A DNA stretch of 64,000 nucleotides, from NCBI RefSeq assembly GCF_000317045.1, contig NC_019703.1, forward strand, positions 2,158,501 through 2,222,500, in the 5' to 3' direction. The notes under the pieces are model-generated. The model saw only the letters and a program-made list of their open reading frames with translations. It was not told the DNA's origin and did no database searches. Each line of letters starts with the position of its first letter. Position 1 is the first letter of the stretch. The translations under genes were made by a program, and so were the position numbers. Source of the stretch: Geitlerinema sp. PCC 7407 (GTDB lineage Bacteria > Cyanobacteriota > Cyanobacteriia > PCC-7407). Below are positions 10,895-30,604 of the stretch, one piece after another.

Positions 10895-10994
10895 GGCGAT
10901 CGCAGACCGCTGAGGCATTTTCCTTTACCTCGGGAAAGAACGGCGAAGCGGTGTATCCCTTCTGAGAGCTTTGTCCTAGAGAGTGCCTTCGCCT

Positions 10995-13924: not shown

Positions 13925-14705
13925 CATGGTAATAGTAATTTGATAAGCTAGGAGAATCAAGCATTGCAGCTAAATCGATGAATTGCCCCAAGTGCCAATC
14001 TTCTTAAATTATCAAATACGAGCATACCCATTACAGCAAACCACGATTCCACTGCCGAGACTATGGACGGCAGTTTGTTGAGGGTGCTACCCGACAATCA
14101 ATTGATGAGTCGACTCGCCAACTGATTGATAAGTTGTTGCTCGAACGCCTAGCCCCAGCAGCGATTGCACGGGTGACGGGCGTTTCTCCTCACTGGCTAC
14201 AAATGTATGTCAATCAGAAGTTCTACCAAACACCGAAGACCATCGAAGTCACCCAAAAAACCGGGGACGGTTGACAATTCAGTTGGATGAGATATGGTCC
14301 TATGTTGGCTCTAAAGCAAATAAACACTGGATTTGGTTGGCGATTGATGCTGATAGCCGTGAAATTGTTGGGTTATTTGTCGGTACGCGTTCTCGGCAAG
14401 ATGCAAAGGGGCTTTGGCAATCCTTGCCAGCCGTTTATCGTCAGTGCGCGATCTGCTACACCGATTTTTGGGAAGCTTATCAGCAGGTACTACCGAGGAA
14501 GCGGCATCGAGTAGTTAGCAAAGAAACTGGGCAAACCAGTTACATTGAGCGATTTAACAACACCTTACGGCAGCGAATCGGACGCTTAGTTCGCAAGACC
14601 TTGTCGTTTTCCAAGAAGTTGAGTAACCACATTGGGGCAATTTGGTACTTTGTGCATCATTACAATGACGCTTTGCGCTCCTAACCATTACTATTCATTG
14701 TCACC
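13925..14705 (+). mobile_element. Inactive IS1-family-like insertion sequence
   Basis: The element carries a two-frame transposase of IS1 type (InsA-like then InsB-like). Imperfect inverted ends share AATAGTAAT near 13930 and on the complementary strand near 14690. The exact ends and target duplication are not clear, so the limits are approximate. It sits directly beside the left flanking repeat of the accessory island. Confidence 0.65.
13978..14684 (+). pseudogene. Broken IS1-type transposase (InsA/InsB frames)
   Basis: From ATG 13978 the frame reads MNCPKCQSS and then hits TAA at 14005-14007, where the family has a charged residue. It continues in frame with a zinc-ribbon and helix-turn-helix part (HCRDYGRQFVEGATRQ, IARVTGVSPHWLQ) to TGA 14272. 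The catalytic DDE half lies in the -1 frame to 14684 (LDEIWSYV, YTDFWEAY, YIERFNNTLRQRI). An A6C run at 14255-14261 at the junction resembles the IS1 frameshift site. The early stop makes the gene non-functional even if frameshifting works. Confidence 0.75.
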
Positions 14706-14965: not shown

Positions 14966-15295
14966 ATGACTATCCGAGTGACGAATTTACCTGCACAGGT
15001 CGCTGAGGGGGATTTGAGGAAGCTTTTTTCAAGCTTCGGTGTAATTCAAAAAATTGATATCAAACTCGAACGTGACGACAACACCGCGTATGTGCAGCTA
15101 GAAGATGGATCTAGTGAAGCTCGTGCTAGGAATGACCTAAATGGAACAGAGTGGTTTGGTCAAATCATTCGTCTTGAGATAATCCGAGAAGGCAGTCGAG
15201 AAGGTGGGCAACCCAAATCCAATCCTATCATTCCTCCTGAGATAATCCAAGAAGGCAGTCGAGAAGATGAACAATCCGAATCTAATCCCGAATAA
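14966..15295 (+). CDS. RRM-type RNA-binding protein with repeated acidic tail, 109 aa
   Basis: Residues 1-75 form one RNA-recognition motif, with RNP2-like IRVTNLP at 3-9 and an RNP1-like NTAYVQLED. The RNP1 lacks one of the usual aromatic residues, so affinity may be altered. The tail has two near-identical units of about 20 residues (EIIREGSREGGQPKSNP, EIIQEGSREDEQSESNP). Ordinary cyanobacterial Rbp proteins have a glycine-rich tail or none, so this is a divergent member. A GGGTG-like site precedes ATG 14966. The next gene on the same strand is a CHAT protease 194 bp on. Linkage to that gene is positional only. Confidence 0.8.
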   Translation: MTIRVTNLPAQVAEGDLRKLFSSFGVIQKIDIKLERDDNTAYVQLEDGSSEARARNDLNGTEWFGQIIRLEIIREGSREGGQPKSNPIIPPEIIQEGSREDEQSESNPE

Positions 15296-15489
15296 GCAAC
15301 CTTAGTAAAAGTGTTGGCACTGAGTACTTAAATCTTGTCTCTTTTTCATAAAGAGATTTCCCCTTTTCTGTGTTAAGCAGCTTGAAAGATGAACCTATCA
15401 GAACTGGCTATTTGACTTGAGGGCGGAAATCTCTACTCGATTGGAAATTTGTCATATTGCACCTATGTAAACTAGAGCGTATTGGGTCT

Positions 15490-16437
15490 ATGACTGGAAC
15501 AAATGTAGCCAAGAAGAAGATTTTGATTCTAGCAGCATTTTCTGCGCAGAGCGATCTGGATTTAGGGAAGGAGATTGAAGAGATTGAAGAGATCATGCAA
15601 GGAGGCTCAAAGAGCTTTGATGTTGATCAACGCACTGCTAAAACTGTTGACAAAGTTCGTCAAGCAATTAGGTATGAATCTCCTCAAATCGTTCATTTTT
15701 GTGGACATGGTTTAGAGGACGGCAGTTTTCTCCTAGATGACGAAAATGATAAGACCAAAAAACACCCCTTGGAACCAAAGGGGCTAGCAGGATTTTTTAG
15801 CAATCTTACTGATGTGGAGTGTGTAATCCTCAATGCTTGCTATTCAGTCAAAGCCGCTGACTTAATTGCAGAGAACATTGCCTATGTGATTGGAATGAAT
15901 CGTGCCATTGGGGATGATGCCGCAATCAAATTTGTTCGAGGCTTTTATGAAGCGTTAAGGGATGAAGCTTTAGGGAATCGACCCGATGTATTTGATAAAG
16001 CTTTTGAGAGGGGGCTACAAGCTCTTGGGGGACATGACCCTTCTCAGCAAGATATTCCAGTTATCCGTAAGAATCTAACAGTCCAAAAACCAGAAGTGCG
16101 ACTCATAAGTCCTGCTGAACATAGCACAGTTCCTATGAGAAGTACGTTCAGTGGTACTTACAAGCATTTAGAAGAAGATATGAGTCTGTGGCTTTTTATT
16201 TTTGCTCCAGGCGAGGGCAAATATTACTTAGATGAAATAGTTAATTATAGAAATGGCAACTGGGAAGTGTCAGGAGTGATTATTGGTGGAGAAGTTGATA
16301 ATCGAGCTACCTATGAAGTAGGAGTGTTGATTGCAGATGCAGAAGCGACGAGAACTCTACGAATAGGTTCGGATGGTTTGAAGGAATTGCCTAGTGGCGT
16401 GAAGAAGTTCAGCGACTACTCAATTTATAGGGAGTAG
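15490..16437 (+). CDS. Small CHAT-domain protease with C-terminal Ig-like domain
   Basis: From ATG 15490 (an in-frame TTG lies at 15457) the protein has 315 residues and no signal peptide. Residues 8-185 are a CHAT (clan CD caspase-like) domain with His73 in VHFCGHG and Cys117 in ILNACYS. Residues about 200-315 are beta-rich and start PEVRLISPAEHSTVP. That opening resembles bacterial Ig/FN3-type modules and is probably a binding module (inference). It has no ATPase or repeat sensor of its own, unlike the two giant CHAT proteins it faces. It may be a downstream protease activated by them or by the RRM partner upstream. It converges on the minus-strand operon with a 62-bp gap and no visible terminator. 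Confidence 0.82.
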   Translation: MTGTNVAKKKILILAAFSAQSDLDLGKEIEEIEEIMQGGSKSFDVDQRTAKTVDKVRQAIRYESPQIVHFCGHGLEDGSFLLDDENDKTKKHPLEPKGLAGFFSNLTDVECVILNACYSVKAADLIAENIAYVIGMNRAIGDDAAIKFVRGFYEALRDEALGNRPDVFDKAFERGLQALGGHDPSQQDIPVIRKNLTVQKPEVRLISPAEHSTVPMRSTFSGTYKHLEEDMSLWLFIFAPGEGKYYLDEIVNYRNGNWEVSGVIIGGEVDNRATYEVGVLIADAEATRTLRIGSDGLKELPSGVKKFSDYSIYRE

Positions 16438-16499
16438 AGTAGCGAGAGGAGCCCAATGAAAATTGGGACAGACGGTCGCCTGCTGTGCAAAATTTACCC

Positions 16500-19400
16500 C
16501 TAATTGCAGAAATGGTGTGAACTGTTGGGTTGGGTTTTTAAGTAATCGCGAATCTGGCTACAGCCTTTCTCCAGCAACTCCTTCAGATTGAGATTTGATA
16601 CTTTCCACAGCAAGACAACTCCATTCAAATCAGCAGAAGCTAACCATTGGTTATCAGGACTGAAACTTACAGCATTCACGTCAGCTTGATGTCCGATTAG
16701 GGTTGTAATTAACGTTCCATCCCGTCGCCAAAGTTTGATCGTCCGATCGCTACTAGCAGAGGCGATGGTTTGTCCATCAGGGCTGAAACTGACCTCAAGC
16801 ACAGCAGCCGTATGTCCTCTCAGCGTTGCAATAACCTTTCCGTCCAGACTCCACAACTTGATGCTTTCATCACTGCTAGCAGAGGCAATTATTTGTCCAT
16901 TGGGGCTGAAACTGACGTGTCGAACTGGATTGGTATGTTCCCGAAATATCTTGAGTTCTTTACCGTCTAAACCCCAAAGTCTCACGGTCCGGTCGTCACC
17001 AGCAGTAGCAATTATTTGTCCATTGGGACTGAAACTGACACTTAATACCCTACCCTGATGCCCCCTAAAGGTTCTAAGCTCTGTACCGTCTGAGCGCCAA
17101 AGCCTTGCGGTTGCATCATCACTAACAGAGGCGATTATTTGTCCATCGGGACTGAAGCTGACCTGATTTACGGCTCCTTGATGACCTTGAAGTATTTTTA
17201 GTGCTTGTCGTTCTACACTCCAGAGCCTCACAGTTTCATCATTACTAGCAGAGGCGATCGTTTGCCCATCTGGGCTGAAGCTTACACTATAAATCTCACT
17301 TTGATGCCCTTTTAGAGTGGAGAGTAACTTACCTGATGGGCTCCAAAGCCTTACCATTTTGTCAGACCCTGCACTCACCACCCATTTACCATCCGGGCTA
17401 AACTGAACGCTATTTACAAAACCATTATGCCCAACCAGCACAGTTAGCCAGCTTCGATTCACCTGCCAAATTTTTGTGAGCTTATCATTACTAGCGGTGA
17501 CAAGCATCTGTCCATCTGGGCTAAAATCCACACTGGGAATTTGTCCTTCATGAGCAGCCCATGTGTCAAGTTTTCTGCCATCTCGCGCCCAAAGATTCAC
17601 ACTGCCATCAGTGCTACTGGAGGCAATCGTTTGTCCATCGCGACTGAATCTGACGCTCCATACTTCTTGAGGATGGTCAAGGGTTTCTAGAAGTTGACCC
17701 TCTTGACTCCAGAGTTTTACTTTTCGATCCAGACTGGCGGTTGCAAACATTTCACCATCTGGGCTGAAGTCTGCACTCGTAACAACGTCAGTATGTGCAC
17801 TGAGGATTTTCTGCAGCGTTCCATCACGTCTCCAGAGCTTTACTGTCCTGTCATCGCTGATTGTAACAATTCGATTTCCGTCAGGGCTGAAACTTACTCC
17901 CCTGACCACGTTACTATGTCCCTGGATAGTGTTGAGCAATTGACCGTCCGTACGCCACAGTTGCACGGTTCCATCATCGCTGCCTGTGGCAATTGTCTGA
18001 CCATCGGGGCTGAATTGGACACTGAAAACCGTGTTCTTATGAGTATTGATCATCCGTATCGGATTGCCGTTACGATCCCAAAGCCTGACTGTTCCATCCT
18101 GACTGCCAGAGGCAATCGTTTGTCCATTGGGACTAAAACTGACGCTCACTACGGGTTCTGTATGTTCCTTTAGGATTTTGATTAGTCTGCCGTCCGAGTG
18201 CCACAGATTCACCGTATTGTCATAGCTGGCTGTGGCAAGTCTGTCACCATTTGGGCTAAATCTAACACTCTGAACCGTAGCTTGATGCCCTTTCAGACGG
18301 TTGTGCTCTCGCGTCCAGTAACCTGCTGCTGCCAACGTTGCCTGCATATCCTCCTGCATTCTCGGATTGCCCCAAAGGAGTGATTGAAAGCGGCTGGCAG
18401 CATCCAAACCAACCAGTAGCCCATCAACTGTATATCGATTGACTGCGAAACGGGCTTCTGAGGTTTGCCGGAGGGCAGTGATCTGTCCAATTTCGGCTCG
18501 CCTATACAGAATAGTTGAAAAAACGGCTAGCGCCGATGCCACTATGGAGAAAATCGAAACTACCATAAACTGACGTTTCTCCTTGCGACGTTGGCGATCG
18601 CGCAACTCGACACAAGCATCTACGTACTCAGCTTCGAGTTGGTTCAAAAACCCAGTTTGCTTGGATAGCACCTCAGCATCCTCCAATCGTCCGCCTCGAT
18701 GCTCCAGATATTCTTCCTTTCGCTGGTTTTCATCCCAATCTAGTGCAGCCTGACGGATAGCCTCCCGCAGTTGCAAGTTGCTGCGATTCTCCTCCAGCCA
18801 TTGTTGTAAACTCGGCCAGTAGCGGATTAACGCCTCATGAGCTACCTCCACTGTTTCTTTATTGGTGGCTGGGCCTGTACTGGTGACGACCAGTCTGGCT
18901 CCTTCATCTGCCAAACGCTTCACCAGTTGCTTTGTCGCCGTTAGGTCGCCTCCTTTGGGTACCAACTCATCGAGCCACACTCGCCGTCTCGTGTCCCGTC
19001 GCTTTTCTCCCTGTACGGTACTCTCGTCCAAGCGAGTGAGGCGCACAAAGATATCCCGGACTTGGTCTTGCTCATTAGATGGCAAGCTATTGTAAACATC
19101 ATCAGCAGTCTTTGCGATCGCCATCCTCACACCGCCGATCGCCTCGTATTCTTTACAGCGTAACCACCGTCCATGTCGCCGCTTCCACAGCTCTAGTAAA
19201 GCATGTTGCAGCAGTGGCATTGCCCCTGGCTCTCCTTGTACCTCATCGAGAATCAAGTGGCTCAAGCCCGCTTCAAAACGTAGATGTACGTGGGATGCTT
19301 GCATTTCAATCGCTTTGCGGAGTTCGCCGGAGTCCATTGGCGCAATCAATTCTTGCCTTGCCTGCATCAGCTCTTTGAGCTGCCGATGGGAGGCGCACTC

Positions 19401-21176
19401 TCCCCAAAAATCTGCCCGCATCGTAATGATTGTTTTCTGCTGCTGGGCAAGGTTTAATAATCGGTCGATGAATTCAACTCGCTTGGCTTCATCAGTACAT
19501 AGAGTAAATAGTTCCTCAAACTGGTCTACCAGCAGTACTGAAGGCTCAGGAGTCAGATGCGAAAGACTTGCATTGAGTTGTACTAGCGGTTCGCTACTTG
19601 GAGTCAGGTAGACTAGCTGTAAATTTGGCTGTTGACTCTGTAGCTGTGGAATCAAACCAGCTAGCAGCACGGATGATTTTCCAGAGCCGGAAGCTCCTAG
19701 CACGGCTAAGAAGTTATGCTTGGTCAACTTCTGTCGCAGTTGCTCAATGAGGCGATCGCGTCCAAAAAAGAACTCTTGGTCTTCGACGCGGAAGGGAGAT
19801 AGCCCTCGGAAAGGACAACGAGAATCATATTTTGGTGGTTGCTGCTCCAATGCCAAAGCGTTGAAGCTCAGGTCGAGGACTTCATCACAGAGGTTGTTGA
19901 CCTCCTCTAAAGTCTCCTTTCGCTCCTGACGTGCTTCTTTGCTTAGTGCGGTTGCATCTGCACCCAGTGTTCTATCCAGGATATCTGCCTGCTGCTTCAA
20001 CTTCTCTTGCAGCACGGGTGCCCGCTCAATCAGCAAGTTTTGCAGACGCTCTAAACCAAACTGAATTTCGGCGTTGGTTAGGTCTCGGTCAAGCTTGTCA
20101 CTGAAAAGGGGGCGTCCCCCCAGACGGCTGAACAAAGCTGGGACAGTGATGTCGTGACGTTCCGCGAGTCCTGCTGTCGCTTCATTCAAAGCTAAGTCTA
20201 CCTCTCCCGACTCCTTCAGTTGACGGTAAAAGCTCTTTGCCAAAGCTTGGGCGGTCTTGATTGTCACTTTTTCAGTCATCGCCACCACCGCAGGCATCCC
20301 CAGATCGCGCACCAAGCGCTGAGCTAATCCCCCTAATGCCTCTTCTGCTTCTGAACTAGCACTCTCACAAGTGGAGAAAAAGGCAAAGTGCGGTAGACCC
20401 CTCGCTCCTCGTAGCGATCGCAACCGTTCTAACAAGCGAGTCCCGGTTACTGGTTCGACGGAATTATCGGCTTTGGCCCAGTAGAGAACCGTCTCTCCTC
20501 CCTCGATCAGCTTGCCGTGGCAGACAACGTGCAGCAAGGTGTATTGCTTGGTTCGGTCGGTGAGCTGCTTGCACAGTTCATCTAAGTTGGGAAGTCCGAT
20601 CGCTCCATTAACGGTAGCCAGCACATCACAAGGAATTTCTCCCAGCGCTTGCCGGACGCTCTCTACAGTCGCCTCTACATCGAAGGAGTCTAAGCTAAAC
20701 CGTCCGAGTCCAGAGGGACTGGCTACTAATACCAGCGATCGCAAGTCCCGCCGTCCAATGGGAGGAAAGCGGCGATCAGTAATGGCGGGGATATACAGGG
20801 AAAAAGGCGTTCGCTGCTCAATGGCTAACAGATACCAACCGTCATCAATGTTGGCGCACAGCCTTTCCCAACGCAAGCTTCTCAGTTCTCTGTCTTCGGC
20901 TTCGATAAACAGCAGTACCCGCAGAGGTTCAGTCGAGTCGCGTAAAGCACAGACAAAGGCATCGCGCACTTCGTCTCGAAACAGTGCTTTGCCCAAGCGC
21001 GTACCGTAGTTCCTCGGCTGTCCTAGTAGGCTAGTGAGTTCCGAAAAATCCTCCTGAGTAAGCTGGAGAAACCCTTCAGCGCGGATAGGTAGAAGCACGC
21101 CCGGTCGGGTATGTTCGACAACAATCGGCCAGTATGCACCTGATTTGCGCTGGATGGTAATCTCGAAGGTGTTCAT
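16500..21176 (-). CDS. CHAT-nSTAND-TM-WD40 protein (paralogue 1), 1558 aa
   Basis: A leading beta-rich region (1-130, MNTFEITIQRKSG) is followed by CHAT at about 140-360, with His220 (HVVCHGK) and Cys270 (FFSTCESA). Next comes an nSTAND1 NTPase (about 450-840) with Walker A GASGSGKS (494-501) and Walker B LLVDQFEE (Asp551). A hydrophobic helix at about 868-890 could be a membrane anchor. Residues about 955-1530 form fourteen WD repeats of about 41 residues, enough for two seven-bladed propellers. By family logic, propellers sense a ligand, the NTPase oligomerises and the CHAT protease is released. It is last in the minus-strand operon and about half identical by eye to the gene upstream in its CHAT-nSTAND half. 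Confidence 0.92.
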   Translation of the reverse strand: MNTFEITIQRKSGAYWPIVVEHTRPGVLLPIRAEGFLQLTQEDFSELTSLLGQPRNYGTRLGKALFRDEVRDAFVCALRDSTEPLRVLLFIEAEDRELRSLRWERLCANIDDGWYLLAIEQRTPFSLYIPAITDRRFPPIGRRDLRSLVLVASPSGLGRFSLDSFDVEATVESVRQALGEIPCDVLATVNGAIGLPNLDELCKQLTDRTKQYTLLHVVCHGKLIEGGETVLYWAKADNSVEPVTGTRLLERLRSLRGARGLPHFAFFSTCESASSEAEEALGGLAQRLVRDLGMPAVVAMTEKVTIKTAQALAKSFYRQLKESGEVDLALNEATAGLAERHDITVPALFSRLGGRPLFSDKLDRDLTNAEIQFGLERLQNLLIERAPVLQEKLKQQADILDRTLGADATALSKEARQERKETLEEVNNLCDEVLDLSFNALALEQQPPKYDSRCPFRGLSPFRVEDQEFFFGRDRLIEQLRQKLTKHNFLAVLGASGSGKSSVLLAGLIPQLQSQQPNLQLVYLTPSSEPLVQLNASLSHLTPEPSVLLVDQFEELFTLCTDEAKRVEFIDRLLNLAQQQKTIITMRADFWGECASHRQLKELMQARQELIAPMDSGELRKAIEMQASHVHLRFEAGLSHLILDEVQGEPGAMPLLQHALLELWKRRHGRWLRCKEYEAIGGVRMAIAKTADDVYNSLPSNEQDQVRDIFVRLTRLDESTVQGEKRRDTRRRVWLDELVPKGGDLTATKQLVKRLADEGARLVVTSTGPATNKETVEVAHEALIRYWPSLQQWLEENRSNLQLREAIRQAALDWDENQRKEEYLEHRGGRLEDAEVLSKQTGFLNQLEAEYVDACVELRDRQRRKEKRQFMVVSIFSIVASALAVFSTILYRRAEIGQITALRQTSEARFAVNRYTVDGLLVGLDAASRFQSLLWGNPRMQEDMQATLAAAGYWTREHNRLKGHQATVQSVRFSPNGDRLATASYDNTVNLWHSDGRLIKILKEHTEPVVSVSFSPNGQTIASGSQDGTVRLWDRNGNPIRMINTHKNTVFSVQFSPDGQTIATGSDDGTVQLWRTDGQLLNTIQGHSNVVRGVSFSPDGNRIVTISDDRTVKLWRRDGTLQKILSAHTDVVTSADFSPDGEMFATASLDRKVKLWSQEGQLLETLDHPQEVWSVRFSRDGQTIASSSTDGSVNLWARDGRKLDTWAAHEGQIPSVDFSPDGQMLVTASNDKLTKIWQVNRSWLTVLVGHNGFVNSVQFSPDGKWVVSAGSDKMVRLWSPSGKLLSTLKGHQSEIYSVSFSPDGQTIASASNDETVRLWSVERQALKILQGHQGAVNQVSFSPDGQIIASVSDDATARLWRSDGTELRTFRGHQGRVLSVSFSPNGQIIATAGDDRTVRLWGLDGKELKIFREHTNPVRHVSFSPNGQIIASASSDESIKLWSLDGKVIATLRGHTAAVLEVSFSPDGQTIASASSDRTIKLWRRDGTLITTLIGHQADVNAVSFSPDNQWLASADLNGVVLLWKVSNLNLKELLEKGCSQIRDYLKTQPNSSHHFCN

Positions 21177-21393
21177 CCGTCACTTGGTTTTGCTGAGGTT
21201 GGTAGTTGCACAGAATTCTTGAGCTTGATGAGAACGAATGAATCAATTAGCGCTGCTGCTGATCTGTACAGATAATCAATGCCATCGCACAGCCGGCGTG
21301 AAGCGCAGCTATTCCCTCCGGAATAGCTCTCACTGAAATCAGCACTGAGGTTGTTCAAATAGCTACCACCCTATTGCAATTATCTAAAATACC

Positions 21394-24300
21394 TTATCGC
21401 TTAAGATTCCAAGCATATTGCTTACAAGTAGCCTTAGCTTCCTTGGCAACCTCTGTTTTAGGTGTAGCAAGAACAGGGTGATAGCGTAATCGTTCACAGG
21501 CAACCTTAAGCCAAGTATCCAAACGGATGTCCCACGATTTCACAGTACCATCACTCCCTCCAATGACAATAGTGTGCCCATCGGCGCTGATGACAGCAGA
21601 ATTGATACCTTTTTCGTGGGAAAACGGTGGACTAAGGGGCTGACCTTCGCGGTTCCACAGGTATATCTCATCTCCATTTAAACTGATGATGCTTTGGTTG
21701 TCGGCGCTGATGTCAACAGACCGAACAGGTGGAGTAGTGCTGCGGGAAATAGAGGGAGATACAATAGTGTTCCCTTTATAGGCTAGAAATGGTATGCGAG
21801 GATGCCACCAAGGTCTGTTCCACAGCATCACCTGACCATGCTCCCCCCCAGCGACAATAGTTTGTCCATCAGGACTGATAGCAACAGAACTAATCTTACT
21901 CTTTGGGAGAGGCGCTACACCGATACGCTGACCCTGGCGGTTCCAAACTTGCACTTGCTTGTCATCCAAACTGGCAATGGTCTGTCCATTAGGGCTGATA
22001 GCAACATAAGAAATCCCTTTCTTCATGGAAAACGGTGAATCGGCAGCCTTTCCTTGTCGGTTCCACTCTTGCACCTTATTTTCTTTTGTATTCAACCCAA
22101 AGATGGTTTGTCCATCTGAGCTAATGGCGAGCTTATAAAGCGATTCATTTTGGGTAAACGATGAAATGGGTGCTCTAGGATTTCTTCCTGGTCGTTTCCA
22201 CAGTTGCAGATTTCCCTCGTAATCGGTGACAAGAATATGTCCATCGGGAGTAATAGCAGTCTTGAGTGAATTGGTGATAAAGGATTCATGGTATCCTTGA
22301 GGTAGAGGTATTTTGAAGGAGTCAGGGAGGGGTTGAGCCTGAACGCTCCAAAGTTTTACGGTGCTATCGCTTCCTCCTGTAACGATAGTGTGTCCATCAG
22401 GGCTGATGGACACACTATGAACATTTGTATCATATTTGCCGAAGACAGAACCAATATAGAGACCGTGGCCTTTAAATGGTTCACTCAGAGGGGAAACTTC
22501 ATGGCTCCGAGCGTTGTAGTGCCACAGTCCTACCTTGCCATCACCTCCCCCAGTAACGATGGTCTGTCCATCAGGACTGATAGCGACAGATGTGACACTA
22601 TGATCGGCAGGGACTGAAAAGTCTGCAACCAGGCGCTTCCCCTGGCGATCCCACAATCGAACGCTGCCATCGAATCCTTTTCCCCCAGACTTAACATCAT
22701 TTCCAGCAGTAACGATGGTCTGTCCATCAGGACTGATAGCTACAGAATTGATGTAACACTGGATGCCCTCATCACAGACTTTGAAGGGTGTAACGAGGGG
22801 TTTACCCAGGCGGTTCCAAAGTCCCACCTTGCCATCATTTCCAGCAGTAACGATGGTTTTTCCATCTGAACTGATAACGATAGACGTGATAGTACTATCA
22901 TGGGCTTTGAATGGTAGAACAAGGGATATACCCTGCCTAGTCCAAATTCCCACTTTGCCATCGTCTTCTCCACTAACAATCATTGTTCCATCTGAGCTGA
23001 TAGCGACAGGTCTAACCTGAGACAGAGTCGCAACTTTGTGTCTAATACTTGCGAAGGAAGAATGGGGAATTATGGGGGTAGAAAATTCTTCTTTAAAGCA
23101 CTGATTGTGGCGGTTCCAAAGTCCCACCTTGCGATTTTGTCCGGCAATGACGATAATCTGCCCATCCCCACTAATGGCAACAGACGTGACAAAACCTGCG
23201 ACTTCACAGGTTTTTTTCAAATCTTGACCCTTACTGTTCAATAATTGCACCTTGCTAGTAGAACTCGTTCCATCACCTCCCACAATGACAATGGTCTGTC
23301 CATCGGTACTAAATGCAACAGCTCTAACTAATTCTGTATTGGTTTCAAAGGAATTTTGTTCCCGACTTATTTGAACCGCAGTGAATAAACTGTTTTGAGC
23401 GGAAGCTGGCATTGAGTAGTTGGGAAAACGGACAAAAAATGACTTAGCTAGTCCAACAGCACTAATAGCATTGACTAACCCTTCTGTAGGATTCGTAGCT
23501 AGTAAAGCTTTTGCTGCTGCTGCATACTGTTCCACCTGCTGTCGTTTTGTCTGTTGGAATGCGTATCCTAGCCAGACAACTAATCCCGTCATGATTACAG
23601 CAACAACAATCACGCCTGTAGTAGCCAGCCGCTGTAGGTTGCGTTGGCGATCGCGCAGCTCCACACAAGCCTTTAAATATTCAGTTTCTTGTGGATTCAG
23701 GTACACAAATTTAGGTTGTTTCAATAGATCTTCGGCATCTTGTAATCGCCCCCCCTGATGAATTAAATAGGTGTCTTTGTCTGGCTGATTCTTGTGTTTT
23801 TCCCAATGCTCTGCTGCTTGACTTATAGTCTCTCGTAATTGCAGGTTGCTGCGGTTCTGATCTAACCAATTCTGCAACATTGACCAGTAACGGATTAAAG
23901 CTTCATGGGCGACTTCCACTTCTTCATTACCCGTGGCGTCGTTCCGACTTGTAACCACCAATCGTGCTCCTTCACCGGCCAACTGCTGCACCAGCTTCTT
24001 TGTCACAGCCAGATCACCACCTTCCGGCACCAGATCCTCTAGCTCCACTCGTCGTCGCGTATCCCGTCGTTTTTCCCCTTGTACGGCACTCTCATCCAAT
24101 CGTGTTAAGCGAAAGAAGATATTCCGGACAAGCTCTTGCTCAGAAGCTGGCAAGCTATTGTAAAAATCATCAGCAGTTTTGGCTATTGCCTGCTGAACTC
24201 TACCGATGGCTTGGTACTCTTCATCACACAACCATCGCCCATGTCGCCGCTTCCACAGTTCCTGCAAAGCATATTGCAGCAGTGGCATCGCCCCTGGCTC

Positions 24301-26283
24301 TTCTTGTACCTCATTGAGAATTGAGTTGCTCAGGCCAGTTTCAAAGCGCAGTCCCGCCTTGTCTGCCTGCATCTTCATTACTGTAATTAGTTCAGCGGGT
24401 TTCATCGTCCCAACTAATTTTGGTCGGGCTTCAATCCGCTTACTCAACTCTGGATAAAAGGTACATTCGCCCAAAAAGTCCGCCCGCATCGTCATGACGA
24501 CTTTCCGCCGGGAGGCAAAGGTTAACAAACTTGTGATGAATTCTTGTCGATTGTCTTTATCCTCACAAAGGGTAAAAAGTTCCTCAAATTGATCTACTAG
24601 CAGTACTGACTGTTGTTCTGATACTTTCGATAGTCTTTCTAATCGTCTTTCTAGTTGTTTGACTGGCTCCCTACCCGGTGTTAGGTAAGCCCACTGTAGG
24701 CTAGGGTTTTGCTCCTTAAGCTTGGGAATCAGCCCAGCTAGCACTACCGATGACTTGCCACTGCCGGAAGGGCCGATAACGGCTAAGAAGTTATCCTTTT
24801 CCAGCTCCTCTTGTAACTCTTTAATCAGCTCATCGCGCCCAAAGAAGAACTTGTGGTATTTTTTGTCGCCGAAGGAATAAAGGCCAGGGAAGGGGCACTC
24901 AGCCTTGTATTCTGGTGGTTCCTTACCCAAGGCTGCCAGAGCATCAAAGCTGAGATCGAGTACTTGGTCACAGATGTTGTCGAGTTCATCTAAAGCCTGA
25001 CGACGCTCATTACGGGCAGCCTGTGAATCTGCTCCTCGTACATTATTCAGTTTTTCGGCATGCGTTTTAAATCTCTGCTTGAGCACAGAAGCATGAGGTG
25101 CCCGCTCTGCGATCAGCTTTTGGAGCTTCCCAATGCCATACCCGATTTCCTCGTCGGTTAGTTCGCGATCTTCGAGGCGATCGCTAAACAAAGGACGACC
25201 ACCCAAGCGGCTAAACAAGGCAGGAACCGTAATATCATAGCGGTCTCCCAGTCCCGCTGTTGCTTCCTGCAACGCTACATCTACTTCTCCCGACTCTCTG
25301 AGTCGTCGATAAAAGCTTTGTCCGATCGCTAAAGCTGTCTTGACGCTCACTTTGCGGGTCATCGCCACTACGGCCGGCATTCCTAAATCCCTCACCAACC
25401 GTTGTGCTAATCCACCTAATGCTTCTTCTGCTCTGGGAATGGCACTTTCGCAAGTGCAGAGGAACGTAAAATGAGGTAAATTTTTCTGATTGCCGACATG
25501 ACGCAGTTCCTCTAGCAATTCTTTGGCAGTAATTGGCAGAACTTGATCATCGGGTGTCGCCCAGTAAAGAACTGTCTCTCCCGTATCAATCAACTTCCCA
25601 TGACAAACAAAATGCAGTAAGGTGTATGGCTTTGGAGCATTTGTCAATTGTTTGGATAGTTCTTGTAGAGTGGGTGGACCGAGCGCACCTTCAACATTAT
25701 TTGCTAGAAAGTTATAAGGAATTTCACCCAGCGCTTCTTTGACTCCTGACAAAGCTGTCTCAACATCAAAAGATGCTAATTTATATGTTTCTAAATTGGA
25801 GGGACTCGCCACAAGTATCAACGCCCTTAAGTCTCGCCGTCCAATGGGAGAAAAGCAGCGATCGATAATTGTAGGGATGTAGAGTGAAAAGGGTACGCGG
25901 CGATCACGGGCTAACAGATTCCATCCCCCATCAGCATCAATGGGAGCGCATAATCTTTCCCAATGCAAGGTTTTTACTTGGTCTTTTTGGGATGCTTCGA
26001 TCGCGAGTAATATTCGCAGGCGGTTGTCCTGGCTGCTTTTGGAAAATGCGCGGATAAATGTATCTCGCACTTCTTCTCGAAACAGAGCTTTGCCCAGGAG
26101 TGTACCGTATGCTTTCTCGTTTTCGCTCTCTTCTATGAGTTTTTCAAAGTCATCCTGAGTGAGACGGAGAATTCCTTTGGCATGAATGGTTAAACCATCC
26201 GGTTGCTTACACCTGATAACAATGGGCCAGCTATTATCACCTGACTTGCTCTGAATGGCAATCTCGAACTCAAAGGTGTTCAT
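21394..26283 (-). CDS. CHAT-nSTAND-TM-WD40 protein (paralogue 2), 1629 aa
   Basis: Same architecture as paralogue 1. N-terminal region 1-140 begins MNTFEFEIAIQSKSG. CHAT is at about 150-370 with His228 (HFVCHGK) and Cys278 (FLCTCESA). nSTAND1 spans about 460-855 with Walker A GPSGSGKS (504-511) and Walker B LLVDQFEE (Asp564). A hydrophobic helix lies at about 884-908. The WD region (about 990-1600) has about thirteen to fourteen units. They are much more irregular than in paralogue 1, with insertions and long linkers and a consensus of VAISPDGQTIV-GGDGKVGLWNR. The protease and NTPase halves are conserved between paralogues while the sensor halves differ, which points to different ligands. The gap to the downstream gene is 217 bp. 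Confidence 0.92.
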   Translation of the reverse strand: MNTFEFEIAIQSKSGDNSWPIVIRCKQPDGLTIHAKGILRLTQDDFEKLIEESENEKAYGTLLGKALFREEVRDTFIRAFSKSSQDNRLRILLAIEASQKDQVKTLHWERLCAPIDADGGWNLLARDRRVPFSLYIPTIIDRCFSPIGRRDLRALILVASPSNLETYKLASFDVETALSGVKEALGEIPYNFLANNVEGALGPPTLQELSKQLTNAPKPYTLLHFVCHGKLIDTGETVLYWATPDDQVLPITAKELLEELRHVGNQKNLPHFTFLCTCESAIPRAEEALGGLAQRLVRDLGMPAVVAMTRKVSVKTALAIGQSFYRRLRESGEVDVALQEATAGLGDRYDITVPALFSRLGGRPLFSDRLEDRELTDEEIGYGIGKLQKLIAERAPHASVLKQRFKTHAEKLNNVRGADSQAARNERRQALDELDNICDQVLDLSFDALAALGKEPPEYKAECPFPGLYSFGDKKYHKFFFGRDELIKELQEELEKDNFLAVIGPSGSGKSSVVLAGLIPKLKEQNPSLQWAYLTPGREPVKQLERRLERLSKVSEQQSVLLVDQFEELFTLCEDKDNRQEFITSLLTFASRRKVVMTMRADFLGECTFYPELSKRIEARPKLVGTMKPAELITVMKMQADKAGLRFETGLSNSILNEVQEEPGAMPLLQYALQELWKRRHGRWLCDEEYQAIGRVQQAIAKTADDFYNSLPASEQELVRNIFFRLTRLDESAVQGEKRRDTRRRVELEDLVPEGGDLAVTKKLVQQLAGEGARLVVTSRNDATGNEEVEVAHEALIRYWSMLQNWLDQNRSNLQLRETISQAAEHWEKHKNQPDKDTYLIHQGGRLQDAEDLLKQPKFVYLNPQETEYLKACVELRDRQRNLQRLATTGVIVVAVIMTGLVVWLGYAFQQTKRQQVEQYAAAAKALLATNPTEGLVNAISAVGLAKSFFVRFPNYSMPASAQNSLFTAVQISREQNSFETNTELVRAVAFSTDGQTIVIVGGDGTSSTSKVQLLNSKGQDLKKTCEVAGFVTSVAISGDGQIIVIAGQNRKVGLWNRHNQCFKEEFSTPIIPHSSFASIRHKVATLSQVRPVAISSDGTMIVSGEDDGKVGIWTRQGISLVLPFKAHDSTITSIVISSDGKTIVTAGNDGKVGLWNRLGKPLVTPFKVCDEGIQCYINSVAISPDGQTIVTAGNDVKSGGKGFDGSVRLWDRQGKRLVADFSVPADHSVTSVAISPDGQTIVTGGGDGKVGLWHYNARSHEVSPLSEPFKGHGLYIGSVFGKYDTNVHSVSISPDGHTIVTGGSDSTVKLWSVQAQPLPDSFKIPLPQGYHESFITNSLKTAITPDGHILVTDYEGNLQLWKRPGRNPRAPISSFTQNESLYKLAISSDGQTIFGLNTKENKVQEWNRQGKAADSPFSMKKGISYVAISPNGQTIASLDDKQVQVWNRQGQRIGVAPLPKSKISSVAISPDGQTIVAGGEHGQVMLWNRPWWHPRIPFLAYKGNTIVSPSISRSTTPPVRSVDISADNQSIISLNGDEIYLWNREGQPLSPPFSHEKGINSAVISADGHTIVIGGSDGTVKSWDIRLDTWLKVACERLRYHPVLATPKTEVAKEAKATCKQYAWNLKR

Positions 26284-26324
26284 AATGCAATGTACCCTGT
26301 TTATTTCTTGATTGTTTATCAGCT

Positions 26325-26405
26325 TTACAAGTCTGGCGGTGCGAAAAATTCAGTTGTGAAGCGATCGCCACTCTTGCCTTGATTAGTAATCTCAAAGGCG
26401 TTCAT
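26325..26405 (-). pseudogene. Vestigial third start of a CHAT-nSTAND-WD40 gene
   Basis: The 26-codon frame starts MNAFEITNQGKSGDRF and then stops. It matches the opening of both giant genes (MNTFEITIQRKSG, MNTFEFEIAIQSKSGD) and lies just upstream of paralogue 2. I read it as the remnant of a third tandem copy, or a partial duplication of the 5' end. An independent leader-peptide role is possible but unsupported. Confidence 0.55.
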
Positions 26406-26426
26406 TAAGCATTGCTAAAACTGTTA

Positions 26427-28103
26427 TTAACTTTGCTGCTTCAACTTATTAAGTAGATTAATTACATCTGACACTGTTGCCTGAAGTCTTTCGGCCTGAG
26501 GGACTGAAACTTTCTGAACTCTCTCTAGAAATTGTTCCAGAGATTTAACTAAGTCCATCTGAGCTTGCTTCAAGAAAGGTTCATCAAAGGTGGCTTCCTC
26601 ATTTAGAGGCGATATTGCAGGCGCAGACTGCAAAGTCACTGATTCAAGGACTGGTCGCTCAGTAATTACATCACCAACAGCTAGCCGCACTGCTGGATCG
26701 CCGATAATCGTATAGCTGCGGGCATCATTGTTAGCTGTCCACATACTAGCTAAAGACAAGTGATGAACCTCTGCACCACAATTTACATCTTCTAGTACAG
26801 CACTCAAGTCGGAGGAGAGTTCTGCATAGCGTTGGTTGAAAAACTCTAGAGCTGATCCCACCGGATGACCTTCCATCAGTCGCTTCAAAGCACTTTGAAA
26901 TACTCCCAACTGTGGTCCGGTGTTCTGCCACACAAAAGAACAACCCCAAGCTCGCTCCACATGACCGACTACGGCCAACGCCCCCCCTTTGGGATGACCA
27001 AGCAAGCGCTGCGGCAAGCGAGCAACAAATGCGTGAGGTGCAATAGTTGACTGTTTGCTGAAAGCATCTTTGTGAGCAAAATCATCCAACTTAGGCGTAC
27101 CCGCACCATAGCAGGCAAAGTGAAATGCGATTAATCCCAGCAATCGAGCGTCGTCACTAACGTCATCAGCACAAAAATAAAAATCTTCTGGAATGGCTCC
27201 TTGCCACTGGAGTGGACCCGGCCAGTCCTGACATATCAGTGCCCCTTGATGGCTTAACTGCCGTGAGTCGCCATTCGGAAAGCCCATACCATGACTAGCT
27301 GTAAACAGCAGGCTAGGAGTTTCGCTACCACCTAACAATTGCTCCAATCGCGCCTTGGTGCTTTCATCTTTGAGTAGGGTTTGCACAGTCCAGCTTGGCT
27401 GGTCTTTGAGCATTAATTCAGCCAGTGGTTTAATGAGGTGGTTAGCACTGAGTTGAGTAGCTTTGTCAGCATTGTTCCACACCCCAAAGAAGCTAGCGTG
27501 GCGAGGCAGTGAGAGCTCGCCTGTTTCTGCCTCTACTACACTGCGAGCATACTGAGCATACTCCTCCGGAGTGTCAAAGTGAATGCGACCCACTGCATAC
27601 TGCACGTCGAGTTGGTACTGAAAGCGATAAGGAATTGTCTTTGGGTCGCCAACGATAAGCAAGTAGTAGGGCATTTTGTCTGGATCGGCGGGACCCGGAC
27701 CTACTTTGTGACGAGCTAGAAACTTATCTTTTGACTCACCTGGACGATAAGCTTTGACACCCTCAAATTCTTGATAGTAATGTTCATTCTTCTTTGTTGC
27801 TTGCTCTCGGCGAAGATTCAGCAGCGGGCTGAGGGCTTCTTTAATTGCAGGGTCAACATTATGAGCGAAAATGACTCCCCAACCTGTTTCTGCCAGGTTT
27901 TTCGGGTCTACTCCTTCTACAGGAGCAAACTCTGGCTCTATACCTTTAATGTGCAGATTTTTTTTCTGAAGTTCAAGGAGGTGTGCTTCGTCAAACTTCT
28001 CACCACAAGCAATTTGGGAGACTTGCTCAGATGTTAGTGGTGGTAGCAAATACTCGCCAGTTGCCCCATCAATTCCATTGAAAAAGAACTGCTCTGTACT
28101 CAT
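26427..28103 (-). CDS. C25 (gingipain-like) clan-CD cysteine peptidase, 558 aa
   Basis: The protein has features of C25-type caspase-fold peptidases: a GDP motif in [16 protein letters not shown] (147-162), catalytic His271 in [15 protein letters not shown], catalytic Cys331 in [12 protein letters not shown], and the terminal [11 protein letters not shown] (464-474). Classical gingipains are secreted proenzymes with long adhesin tails; this one has no signal peptide and no tail, so it is predicted cytoplasmic. The C-terminus (about 500-558) is a helical, coiled-coil-like stretch. It lies between the hydrolase gene (43-bp gap) and the giant CHAT genes on the same strand. It could be a substrate activated by their proteolysis, or a second effector (inference). 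Confidence 0.82.
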
Positions 28104-28146
28104 ATAGCTTACACCCTATTAAGTTGACATCAAAGCCACTGTTTGT

Positions 28147-29502
28147 TTAACTGCAAAGTGCTGCCTGCCACACAGCATGAGCCACTTCCGGTTTAGCAAT
28201 GTCGTTGTGAGCCCCCCCCAGCCCACCACCACTTTTATCGCAAATATAGGATGTTCCGTTCAAGTTATAGATTTTTCCTATCTCATACCCATACTGTTGG
28301 TCCGTGGGCAGCATCGGCATCATCACAATTTCAAGCCCCGGCCCTTGTGCTCCAAACGTACCCATGCTGCCATAGATAGGCAGTAATCCAGGGGAATAAT
28401 CATACTGCCCTGCAACTTCTACGCCGAGGGGATACATAATTCGCACCGCCGTATCATGAACAGATTGAGTTGTGACGATCGGTCCCCTCACCCGTCGATC
28501 GCGGATCAGGTCATGGAAATAGCCTGGTCTTCCTGGTTTAGGGGGAATATTCGAGCAGTATGACCAAAGTGACAGCGCCCCCTGAACTAGCACCACAGAA
28601 TCCACAGGTCGCAGCAGGTTGCTTTTTGAGGTTGTGCCTGCCAGCATTGCTGACACCACAATGCAGCCAAAGCTATGTCCCATCAGGTGAAATTGCACTT
28701 GCTTATCCGTTGCTTGTTGTAATCGTATTAGGAGCTGAGCGCCACCCGTTTCCCCAAACTGTCGTGCCCGATCCTTCATCTTCCAGAAAGACAATGTTCG
28801 CAAGGGAGCCAGCACACGATCGAAATTCCAGCTAGAACTGCCAAAGCTGATATCTCCATCACTCTCAAAATCTGCCTCTTCATAAATCTGCCCTGGGTCA
28901 AACACGTCGCGATCAAATCCTGGAGCTGCCCCTTCGCCTTCAGCAGTTAAACCCGCTTCCTGCTGCAATACTCTATAGGCATCTTGGACTTCTAGTGGCA
29001 ATTCGTCAGGCATGGGATCTTCGCTGGCGGCAGTCAAAATTGTGCGAAGTGCCTGTCGGGATGGGGTAGTATTGGCAATTCGATCGGCATATTGCTCAAC
29101 AAGTGAATCAATAAAGTCAGGCGTTTTAGTTGCTGCATCAGCTTCCGGTCCAGCAAAACTCACGCCTGCGTTCTCCAGTTCCTCATTCCCCCAGGGCTTA
29201 CTAGGCCAGTGCAAACCAATCAGTAGCGGCTTAAATTTAGGTCTGGCTTGTCGCATGCGATCGATATCCTGCTTTTGCCTTGCCATCACGGTCAGCCATC
29301 GGTTGTACTGGTCACGTGCTCCAGGGATATCCCCCAGCCAGCCATGACTGAAAATAAAAATATCTGTGCTCGGTTCAGTTTCCAGAACTTCCAGTAGCTT
29401 TTGACTCATCTTGCCATCCGCTTCCTCTCGCTCTTGACCTAGCGCATCAAAAGCAATTAGGTAATATTGCAGCCCAGATTCCGGTACAGTCTCGATCGGC
29501 AT
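28147..29502 (-). CDS. Alpha/beta hydrolase (lipase/esterase-like), first gene of the CHAT operon
   Basis: This 451-residue protein has an alpha/beta-hydrolase fold. The nucleophile elbow is GHSFG with Ser277 (HLMGHSFGCIVVS). An HG oxyanion-type motif lies at 52-55 (IFSHGWLGD), and a C-terminal candidate catalytic His is in GGAHNDIAKPEVAHAVW. A region of about 130 residues between strand parts (about 110-240), rich in acidic residues, may be a lid or a protease-sensitive linker. There is no signal peptide. A strong GGAGGTG site precedes ATG 29502, so this is the operon's first gene. The substrate cannot be read from sequence; lipid, ester or amide are all possible. In this setting a membrane-lipid effector is an attractive inference. 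Confidence 0.8.
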   Translation of the reverse strand: MPIETVPESGLQYYLIAFDALGQEREEADGKMSQKLLEVLETEPSTDIFIFSHGWLGDIPGARDQYNRWLTVMARQKQDIDRMRQARPKFKPLLIGLHWPSKPWGNEELENAGVSFAGPEADAATKTPDFIDSLVEQYADRIANTTPSRQALRTILTAASEDPMPDELPLEVQDAYRVLQQEAGLTAEGEGAAPGFDRDVFDPGQIYEEADFESDGDISFGSSSWNFDRVLAPLRTLSFWKMKDRARQFGETGGAQLLIRLQQATDKQVQFHLMGHSFGCIVVSAMLAGTTSKSNLLRPVDSVVLVQGALSLWSYCSNIPPKPGRPGYFHDLIRDRRVRGPIVTTQSVHDTAVRIMYPLGVEVAGQYDYSPGLLPIYGSMGTFGAQGPGLEIVMMPMLPTDQQYGYEIGKIYNLNGTSYICDKSGGGLGGAHNDIAKPEVAHAVWQAALCS

Positions 29503-30270: not shown

Positions 30271-30483
30271 TCAAATATCTTTTAGTTTAATTTTTAATTG
30301 ATAAATCGCTGGTGATCTCGATTGCTTTCGAGTTGTCATAGTTAATTTTTTAATTAGGGAATCAGGATATGCTTGGTTCTGAATGAGCGATTTCAACCCT
30401 TTGTAGGTATCTGAAACTGTCTCGCCCGCTACCGTAGCTGCACCGGCAACTAGAGCATTGAGAATGAGTGTTACTGGATCCAT
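30271..30483 (-). CDS. Truncated small protein starting MDPVTLILNALVAGA, 70 aa
   Basis: ATG 30483 is preceded by a good TAGGAG site (CTTAGGAGATTGAACACC). The first 40 residues (MDPVTLILNALVAGAATVAG then ETVSDTYKGLKSLI) resemble a recurring N-terminal module of bacterial proteins of unknown function. I recall it mainly in NLR-like and other conflict-associated settings. In those proteins the module runs on into a longer acidic part. Here the sequence after residue 40 becomes basic and unrelated, so the gene looks truncated by a frameshift or deletion. If still made, it could be a short hydrophobic peptide. The family recollection is from memory and unverified. Confidence 0.5.
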   Translation of the reverse strand: MDPVTLILNALVAGAATVAGETVSDTYKGLKSLIQNQAYPDSLIKKLTMTTRKQSRSPAIYQLKIKLKDI

Positions 30484-30604
30484 GGTGTTCAATCTCCTAA
30501 GTTGTGAAAGTCATGACAGCAAACAAAGCACAAGGCTATTCATTGGATCTAGAAGTTATTCTGCCTTAGGCAAAGCCATTCAAAAGGCATTTATTCAAAT
30601 TCTT

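Follow-up and report, generated by a model that had tools for sequence, protein, structure and literature searches.

We analyzed a 64,000-nucleotide window of the Geitlerinema sp. PCC 7407 genome (NC_019703.1, positions 2,158,501 to 2,222,500), in which four neighboring genes on the minus strand encode, in order, an alpha/beta-hydrolase, a C25 peptidase, and two large proteins, here called CHAT2 and CHAT1, that each combine a CHAT protease, an nSTAND1 NTPase, and WD40 repeats. The intergenic gaps within this set are 43, 143, and 217 bp. An earlier note on this DNA had proposed a six-gene system that also took in two genes on the plus strand, for an RRM protein and a small CHAT protein. A check of open reading frames (ORFs) in the window found all six open where that note had placed them, and the kinds of genes held up as well, with Pfam matches for five of the proteins and only a sub-threshold match to Abhydrolase_6 (0.0092) for the hydrolase. 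The catalytic residues are intact, as the note had reported: the His/Cys dyads of CHAT1, CHAT2, and the small CHAT protein, the C25 dyad, Walker A and B in both NTPases, and GHSFG in the hydrolase. Sequence comparison across bacteria shows a conserved set of hydrolase, C25, and CHAT; in cyanobacteria the CHAT protease is usually part of a longer chain with nSTAND1 and repeats. The comparison also shows a short motif, V-[SD]-F-[GSAD], that recurs in predicted-disordered or inserted linkers of three partner families.

The hydrolase (28147..29502, minus strand; 451 amino acids) is a candidate gated lipid hydrolase with its nucleophile, Ser277, in GHSFG; this serine is kept in 21 of 21 relatives, and the gene is single-copy in a genome that is one contig of 4.68 Mb. 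Its predicted structure is of moderate quality overall (predicted local distance difference test, pLDDT, 72; predicted template-modeling score, pTM, 0.80) and contains a helical insert at about residues 105-230 (28813..29190, minus strand) that we presume to be a gate or lid. The pLDDT falls below 50 at residues 105-122, 188-199, and 212-227, around helices 123-209. Two of these least certain segments, the loops at 105-122 and 212-227, flank the helical insert and carry one motif copy each, VSFA at residues 114-117 (29152..29163, minus strand) and ISFG at residues 218-221 (28840..28851, minus strand), with little other residue conservation in the alignment. In VIA, the model is matched best by Nir1 and Nir2, through their DDHD (NirD) domains (Z 14.1 over 229-253 residues; root-mean-square deviation, rmsd, 4.3-5.0), followed by many lipases and esterases at Z of about 12. 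DDHD domains belong to phospholipase A1-type enzymes. Foldseek alone returned nothing at E<=0.001, and a sequence search of the PDB returned three weak matches only, to the capsule export protein KpsC. Neither the hydrolase nor the C25 peptidase matched a family in PHROGs or NCBIfam, or in PADLOC-DB at E<=0.01; the other PADLOC-DB matches at the locus were partial, covering CHAT or NTPase regions or, for HEAT-ARM_XIII, the WD40 region.

The C25 peptidase (26427..28103, minus strand; 558 amino acids) has the gingipain fold and a Pfam Peptidase_C25 match above cut-off (3.7e-9). Its active-site stretches SHG and FACYG are intact, with Cys331 present in 51/51 relatives and His271 in 98% of them, a count that leaves out pieces shorter than 400 amino acids; the dyad is present in all 46 members of alignment A2, which omits L037, L055, L056, L059, and the first C25 ORF of L057. 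The predicted model (pLDDT 89) matches the gingipains RgpB (4ief; VIA Z 25.3, 308 residues aligned, rmsd 3.3, about 14% identity) and Kgp (Z 23.5), and a PDB sequence search found no relative. No 19-residue window of the protein has a mean hydropathy above 1.6, as judged by a hydropathy scan rather than a dedicated signal-peptide program. A blastn search against E. coli genomes gave no match. We also noted a separate Chloroflexota clade of C25 proteins of about 930-1000 amino acids (L181, L183, L184, L193-L196, L198, L203, and L204), with recurring neighbors of 220-280 amino acids and no CHAT label nearby, and excluded this clade from the analysis.

Both large proteins, CHAT2 (21394..26283, minus strand; 1629 amino acids) and CHAT1 (16500..21176, minus strand; 1558 amino acids), are candidate sensors and initiators, with Pfam matches to nSTAND1 (about 1e-112) and WD40. 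CHAT2 also matches CHAT (5.5e-12); in CHAT1 this family is not among the best 25, and we assigned the region from its alignment to CHAT2 and from the dyad residues. The CHAT cysteine is kept in 21/21 relatives. A hydrophobic helix resembling a transmembrane segment lies between nSTAND1 and WD40 in both proteins, and 16 of 18 relatives share it; the sensors may therefore be tethered to a membrane. That the WD40 repeats might do the sensing is suggested by analogy.

The earlier note had made recurrence of the neighborhood a test of its proposal, and hydrolase, C25, and CHAT do recur together across phyla: in cyanobacteria, Chloroflexota, Alphaproteobacteria, and Embleya, partly on plasmids. Four of 291 sampled genomes of the phylum, that of Geitlerinema included, encode the hydrolase; C25 is found in the same four plus one fragment, with the two genes adjacent each time. 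A wider C25 scan yielded 51 loci from cyanobacteria, Chloroflexi, Acidobacteria, Planctomycetota, Desulfatirhabdium, proteobacteria, and Nannocystis. Relatives of C25 occur in 22/301 genomes of the phylum of G317 (a Thermoflexia bin), partly the clade with other neighbors, and in 8/247 of the phylum of G321 (an Acidobacterium bin). Locus rows L010-L013, which cover the same places as later loci, and L020, a near copy of L018, were dropped. Hydrolase and C25 share a strand in all 26 loci that have both and lie at most 700 bp apart in 23 of them. Their distance matrices are strongly correlated (r=0.90 over 25 loci; none of 2000 permutations as high), as are those of hydrolase and CHAT-nSTAND (r=0.80, 15 loci). 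A CHAT-nSTAND gene accompanies the hydrolase at 17 of 20 cyanobacterial loci, with L030 contributing just the nSTAND-WD40 portion, at a contig end; two of the remaining three, L021 and L028, end with the contig, and L022 lacks the gene. CHAT-nSTAND genes are paired, as here, on a Nostoc MS1 plasmid and in L015.

Plasmids of Nostoc MS1, Planktothrix, Sinorhizobium, Bradyrhizobium, and Gemmobacter carry the set, conjugative plasmids among them. On those of Bradyrhizobium and Gemmobacter, C25 is only 26-27% identical, yet it directly follows a CHAT gene, and the hydrolase encoded upstream belongs to the family as well, at profile E values of 7.8e-33 and 1.1e-30. On the Planktothrix plasmid 7.8 kb separates hydrolase from C25, and homologs of hydrolase, CHAT, and C25 lie together on a plasmid of Embleya. 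The two proteases can also be joined in one chain. An acidobacterial protein (L189) fuses tetratricopeptide repeats (TPR), CHAT (8.4e-66), and C25 (3.2e-4, below the curated cut-off), and a Chloroflexota protein (L192) has weak C25 (2.9e-3) and CHAT (9.9e-4) matches, both below curated cut-offs; a profile of this C25 family scores both proteins strongly. At non-cyanobacterial loci CHAT is often fused instead to a SIR2-like half, in eight proteins from seven loci, the query's own included; Pfam SIR2_2 matches at 2e-24 in L048, and ThsA-type PADLOC matches occur in L045, L048, L050, and L053. At the non-cyanobacterial loci, a C-terminal module is common to C25, to a protein of mostly 240-290 amino acids, and to a small protein of about 110 amino acids, and the members tested have no Pfam or NCBIfam match. 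This module of about 110 residues, possibly an adaptor, is seen at L036:12842-13186, at the C-termini of L036:9974-11977 and L036:11974-12852, and elsewhere, with 74 matches in the loci.

Partners of C25 and of the hydrolase are exchanged between lineages. Plasmids of Rhizobium and Rhodococcus carry members of this hydrolase family behind an S8 peptidase instead of C25. These pairs (L238:5655-8669, L241:5511-8609, L242:3453-6293) form a candidate sister system, and further S8-partnered hydrolases occur in L243, L245, and, as a fragment, L239. In other phyla the enzymes beside C25 include patatin, muramidase, GH108, and a NUC1 nuclease.

Lipoxygenase genes or pieces of them are present at 9/20 cyanobacterial hydrolase loci, in varied positions and orientations; six are full and three cut or fragmented. 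The L027 lipoxygenase matches Pfam at 8.8e-59, and all six full proteins keep a His-x4-His stretch and a C-terminal Ile, which we take to be ligand residues. Because genomes hold few lipoxygenase copies, repeated adjacency by chance is unlikely. The lipoxygenase neighbors, together with the DDHD domains as best structural match, make the earlier suggestion that the hydrolase attacks lipids more plausible. The Nostoc MS1 plasmid carries, upstream of its hydrolase, a gene for an animal-haem peroxidase (L095:7947-9722, plus strand; An_peroxidase 8.1e-24), perhaps another fatty-acid-oxidizing enzyme.

The V-[SD]-F-[GSAD] motif is common to three unrelated families: the hydrolases, the lipoxygenases encoded at their loci, and an uncharacterized Chloroflexota family found beside C25. 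Its approximate consensus, read from the alignment, is V-[SD]-F-[GSAD]-[VIT]-[GT]-[DES]. The pattern [VILA]SF[GAD] occurs 34 times in 27 hydrolase ORFs, versus 2.8 in shuffles, and 27 times in 23 proteins of the Chloroflexota family, versus 1.1. In the latter family, a protein can have as many as three copies, at fixed positions, and one of them often directly precedes a C-terminal module; a single member of 22, in L209, is motif-free. Hydrolases with different partners differ in their loops, in a comparison that omits L016, whose hydrolase is split in two, and L020. In the second loop, 25/27 C25-partnered hydrolases and 0/6 S8-partnered ones carry the motif [SDEN][FY][GSA]; the corresponding counts are 21/27 and 2/6 for the first-loop motif, and 20/27 and 2/6 for a relaxed xFG pattern in the second loop.

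The associated lipoxygenases carry several motif copies in their N-terminal part. The pattern S[FY][GADS], fixed beforehand from the hydrolase and the Chloroflexota family, has 15 copies in 1,616 amino acids of six associated lipoxygenases, compared to 4 in 4,472 amino acids of 30 others. For [VIL][SD][FY][GASD], a pattern widened after we had inspected the associated proteins, the N-terminal counts are 19 in the same 1,616 residues and 1 in the same 4,472. The 30 controls are those in loci returned by the phylum-sample search rather than every match, and the L028 lipoxygenase, which is in two pieces, is excluded from the totals. When four non-associated lipoxygenases are added to the alignment, the two of them that are closest are gapped at three of four motif sites (L079) and two of four (L094), with unlike residues at the others. 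Single motif cases, which we regard as anecdotal, appear in a papain-like enzyme (L033), in muramidase-like proteins and a patatin (L054), and in NUC1 (L059). The L033 gene run (L033:737-6171) comprises a patatin-like protein (by reading), C25, a motif-rich partner, a small module protein, and a papain-like peptidase, the first and last of which also contain SFG or SFA. Three other candidate copies were set aside: VSFS in CHAT1 falls in the WD40 repeats, SFG in the RRM protein is inside the RRM domain match, and for an LSF between CHAT and nSTAND1 the rest of the consensus is unmatched.

Of the six-gene system in the earlier note, the minus-strand set of four is what these comparisons retain. 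The plus-strand genes, for the RRM protein (14966..15295; Pfam RRM_1 6.9e-11) and the small CHAT protein (15496..16437, also open from a TTG at 15457; Pfam CHAT 1.5e-12), are neighbors not supported as members: the related loci list no blastp match to the RRM protein, and a 40% relative of the small CHAT protein adjoins the system in one of them only, L014. All these genes lie in a stretch at 14-32 kb with a GC content of 40-51%, compared to 50-65% in the rest of the window. This stretch starts beside an IS1-family transposase in two reading frames (14134..14684, plus strand; NCBIfam transpos_IS1 6.5e-34 on 14271-14684), of which 14134-14274 is presumably the first frame. A search for inverted repeats flanking the stretch found nothing convincing; direct repeats were not part of that search. 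Elsewhere, a TPR-CHAT gene (10983-13682, plus strand; CHAT 9.6e-74) lies just beyond the low-GC stretch; a hybrid histidine kinase of 2144 amino acids with CBS, GAF, PAS, receiver, and Hpt domains (3405-9839, plus strand) is followed by a response regulator-GGDEF gene; and an ORF of 73 amino acids (30271-30492, minus strand) resembles the truncated N-terminus of a larger protein in gene-poor, AT-rich surroundings.

Based on these sequences, structural models, and analogies, we hypothesize, with a probability of roughly 55%, that the locus is a horizontally moving, NLR-like, protease-gated death or defense module, in which CHAT/C25 proteolysis would un-gate lipid-attacking proenzymes. A trigger sensed by WD40 or other repeats would cause the nSTAND protein to assemble and switch on CHAT. 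CHAT, as initiator, would activate C25, as executioner, or both would act as one complex, and C25 and/or CHAT would cut at V-[SD]-F-[GSAD] motifs. Cuts on either side of the hydrolase insert would open the active site, and the freed hydrolase, together with a lipoxygenase where present, would attack membrane lipids and lead to cell death or arrest. That such a module defends against phages is what we infer. C25 most probably does the cutting of the hydrolase, given that an S8 peptidase fills its slot beside the same hydrolase family in Rhizobium and Rhodococcus. The earlier note's idea that proteolysis activates the hydrolase gains strength from the candidate cut sites around its insert, which belong to a motif that the note did not mention; CHAT, which that note named as the protease, is not the favored cutter, and its proposal that CHAT cleaves C25 is unsupported.

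Several observations weigh against this hypothesis. The second motif is missing from the tested slice in two C25-partnered hydrolases, L096 and L192 (in L192 a DFG lies just outside it, by eye), and the first from six; conversely, two S8-partnered hydrolases have DFD at site 1 and two others xFG at site 2. Grouped by distance, the remaining genes around C25 show no motif enrichment (12 in 37,389 amino acids vs 22 in 83,807; p=0.58), and a later grouping of them by operon run that gave p=0.006 is weak because it was chosen after the distance test failed. The Nostoc MS1 peroxidase has, on reading, no clear motif copy. All of the motif and association statistics and P values ignore shared ancestry. 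A genome search found no lipoxygenase in Geitlerinema itself, so lipoxygenase action cannot belong to this copy, and lipoxygenases are common in carriers generally (14 of 19 locus-carrying genomes or records searched, compared to 45 of 291 in the phylum sample), so their association with the locus may be partly taxonomic. One locus, L022, has hydrolase and C25 and no CHAT in 10.5 kb. Finally, the motif might serve for docking instead, as the P1 residues more usually associated with clan CD peptidases are charged ones.

A possible, though doubtful, alternative is that the genes form a stress or developmental system for cell death, lysis, or lipid turnover in filamentous bacteria and are not directed at phages. 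Many carriers are filamentous or gliding (Nostoc, Scytonema, Microcoleus, Nannocystis), a lipoxygenase suggests oxylipin signaling, and there is no relative of C25 in 50,697 phage records or among the two stretches that a pattern search matched in IMG/VR. The patchy spread, the plasmid carriage, including on conjugative plasmids, the low GC and insertion sequence here, the exchangeable lytic enzymes, and the SIR2 fusion argue the other way, as such features are more typical of conflict systems.

We consider it unlikely that the motif serves to dock C25, CHAT, or a chaperone rather than to be cut, within a standing complex that would regulate the hydrolase by binding. Phe and Ser are rare cleavage positions for clan CD enzymes, and docking would suit several copies per protein at set spacing and the bias that continues after the Phe (V/I/T, G/T, D/E). 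The copies nevertheless border folded segments: two flank the hydrolase insert, and the last copy lies directly before the C-terminal module in most members of the Chloroflexota family. The layout is also like that of HamM, whose cuts were mapped after Ile in two disordered insertions (PMC12799240). A chance cluster of CHAT and WD40 genes, which are common in cyanobacteria, beside an unrelated hydrolase-protease pair is highly improbable: the window does have a further TPR-CHAT gene outside the low-GC stretch, but CHAT-nSTAND accompanies the pair at 17 of 20 cyanobacterial loci (one partial), CHAT directly precedes C25 on the Bradyrhizobium and Gemmobacter plasmids, a CHAT-C25 fusion exists, and the distances are correlated.

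If the gated-module hypothesis is correct, protease-gated immunity extends from nucleases to lipid enzymes, and an unnamed hydrolase family and the cytoplasmic C25 peptidases gain a function. It would also suggest a role for lipoxygenases in bacterial conflict loci, and one predicted cut-site motif in three unrelated families offers a handle in the search for further substrates. We raise only tentatively, and think rather improbable, a more specific version in which death is by proteolytically triggered lipid peroxidation. A single NLR-like CHAT/C25 cascade would act on both a phospholipase-like hydrolase and a lipoxygenase by cutting at the same site, which would couple the release of fatty acids to their oxidation, and in Chloroflexota the same site would gate an unrelated, possibly membrane-active protein. 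Such a pathway would be a regulated counterpart of the eukaryotic lipase-lipoxygenase wound response or of ferroptosis-like death.

The proposed module resembles several known systems in part. In Craspase (gRAMP/Cas7-11 with TPR-CHAT/Csx29), a CHAT protease acts on a partner protein, and our C25 model matches TPR-CHAT (Z 14.6). Here, though, the sensor is nSTAND1-WD40 rather than a CRISPR effector, C25 is a second protease, and the hydrolase is the candidate effector; no gRAMP/Cas7-11 is among the families listed for the six proteins, which is as far as that search went in the genome. Proteolysis also frees a membrane-attacking effector in bacterial gasdermins, whereas the candidate effector here is an enzyme, and no gasdermin model is among those same families. 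The C25 peptidase shares its fold (Z 25.3 to RgpB) and His/Cys dyad with the gingipains of MEROPS C25 but, unlike these secreted enzymes, lacks a hydrophobic N-terminal stretch, is partnered with CHAT-nSTAND, and is only about 14% identical. The large proteins have the CHAT dyad, Walker A and B, and C-terminal repeats of NLR-like CHAT-nSTAND proteins.

PMC7159879, which covers the VMAP or MoxR-vWA ternary and GAP1-N1 conflict systems, states that caspase-superfamily domains of VMAP systems always neighbor an alpha/beta-hydrolase gene. We rejected membership in that group: PF20028 (VMAP-C) has no match in the window's genome, none of 13 cyanobacterial VMAP-C loci (19-20 kb) has a significant match to this hydrolase or C25, and the NTPase here is, unlike theirs, nSTAND1. 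Among the literature matches listed, which leave mostly outside subscription papers and preprints, no description of the hydrolase, C25, and CHAT combination was found; related work includes PMC8195603 and PMC10907252.

The closest parallels are in PMC12799240, which describes HamM, a pro-nuclease cleaved after conserved Ile residues in its two disordered insertions, and Canu (CanABC), a caspase-nuclease system; its authors expect further classes of proteolytically activated enzymes. In that paper, as here, the effector gene adjoins a protease gene in HamM-HamA (Hachiman), the AVAST pair, and Canu; the protease is tied to a sensor NTPase in AVAST and is of the caspase family in Canu, both of which resemble the present arrangement; and the protease partner varies between systems, as C25 and S8 do. 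The hydrolase has, like HamM, two insertions, here predicted to be disordered, that each carry a conserved short site. Hydrolase and C25 genes are likewise adjacent and inherited together (26/26 loci; r=0.90), and the low-pLDDT insertions have short sites that are rarer in unpartnered relatives (25/27 vs 0/6; 19 vs 1). The modeled fold is that of an alpha/beta-hydrolase, not of an MBL-fold nuclease. Hydrolase and C25 may thus work like a HamM or Canu pair, yet they are not one of those nuclease pairs. Unlike HamM and Canu, the system has an alpha/beta-hydrolase, with or without a lipoxygenase, as its candidate effector, two clan CD proteases, CHAT and C25, and a single motif common to three unrelated partner families. 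Protease-gated effectors were already known from HamM and Canu; what is new is the V-[SD]-F-[GSAD] motif in the hydrolase loops, the lipoxygenases, and the Chloroflexota family.

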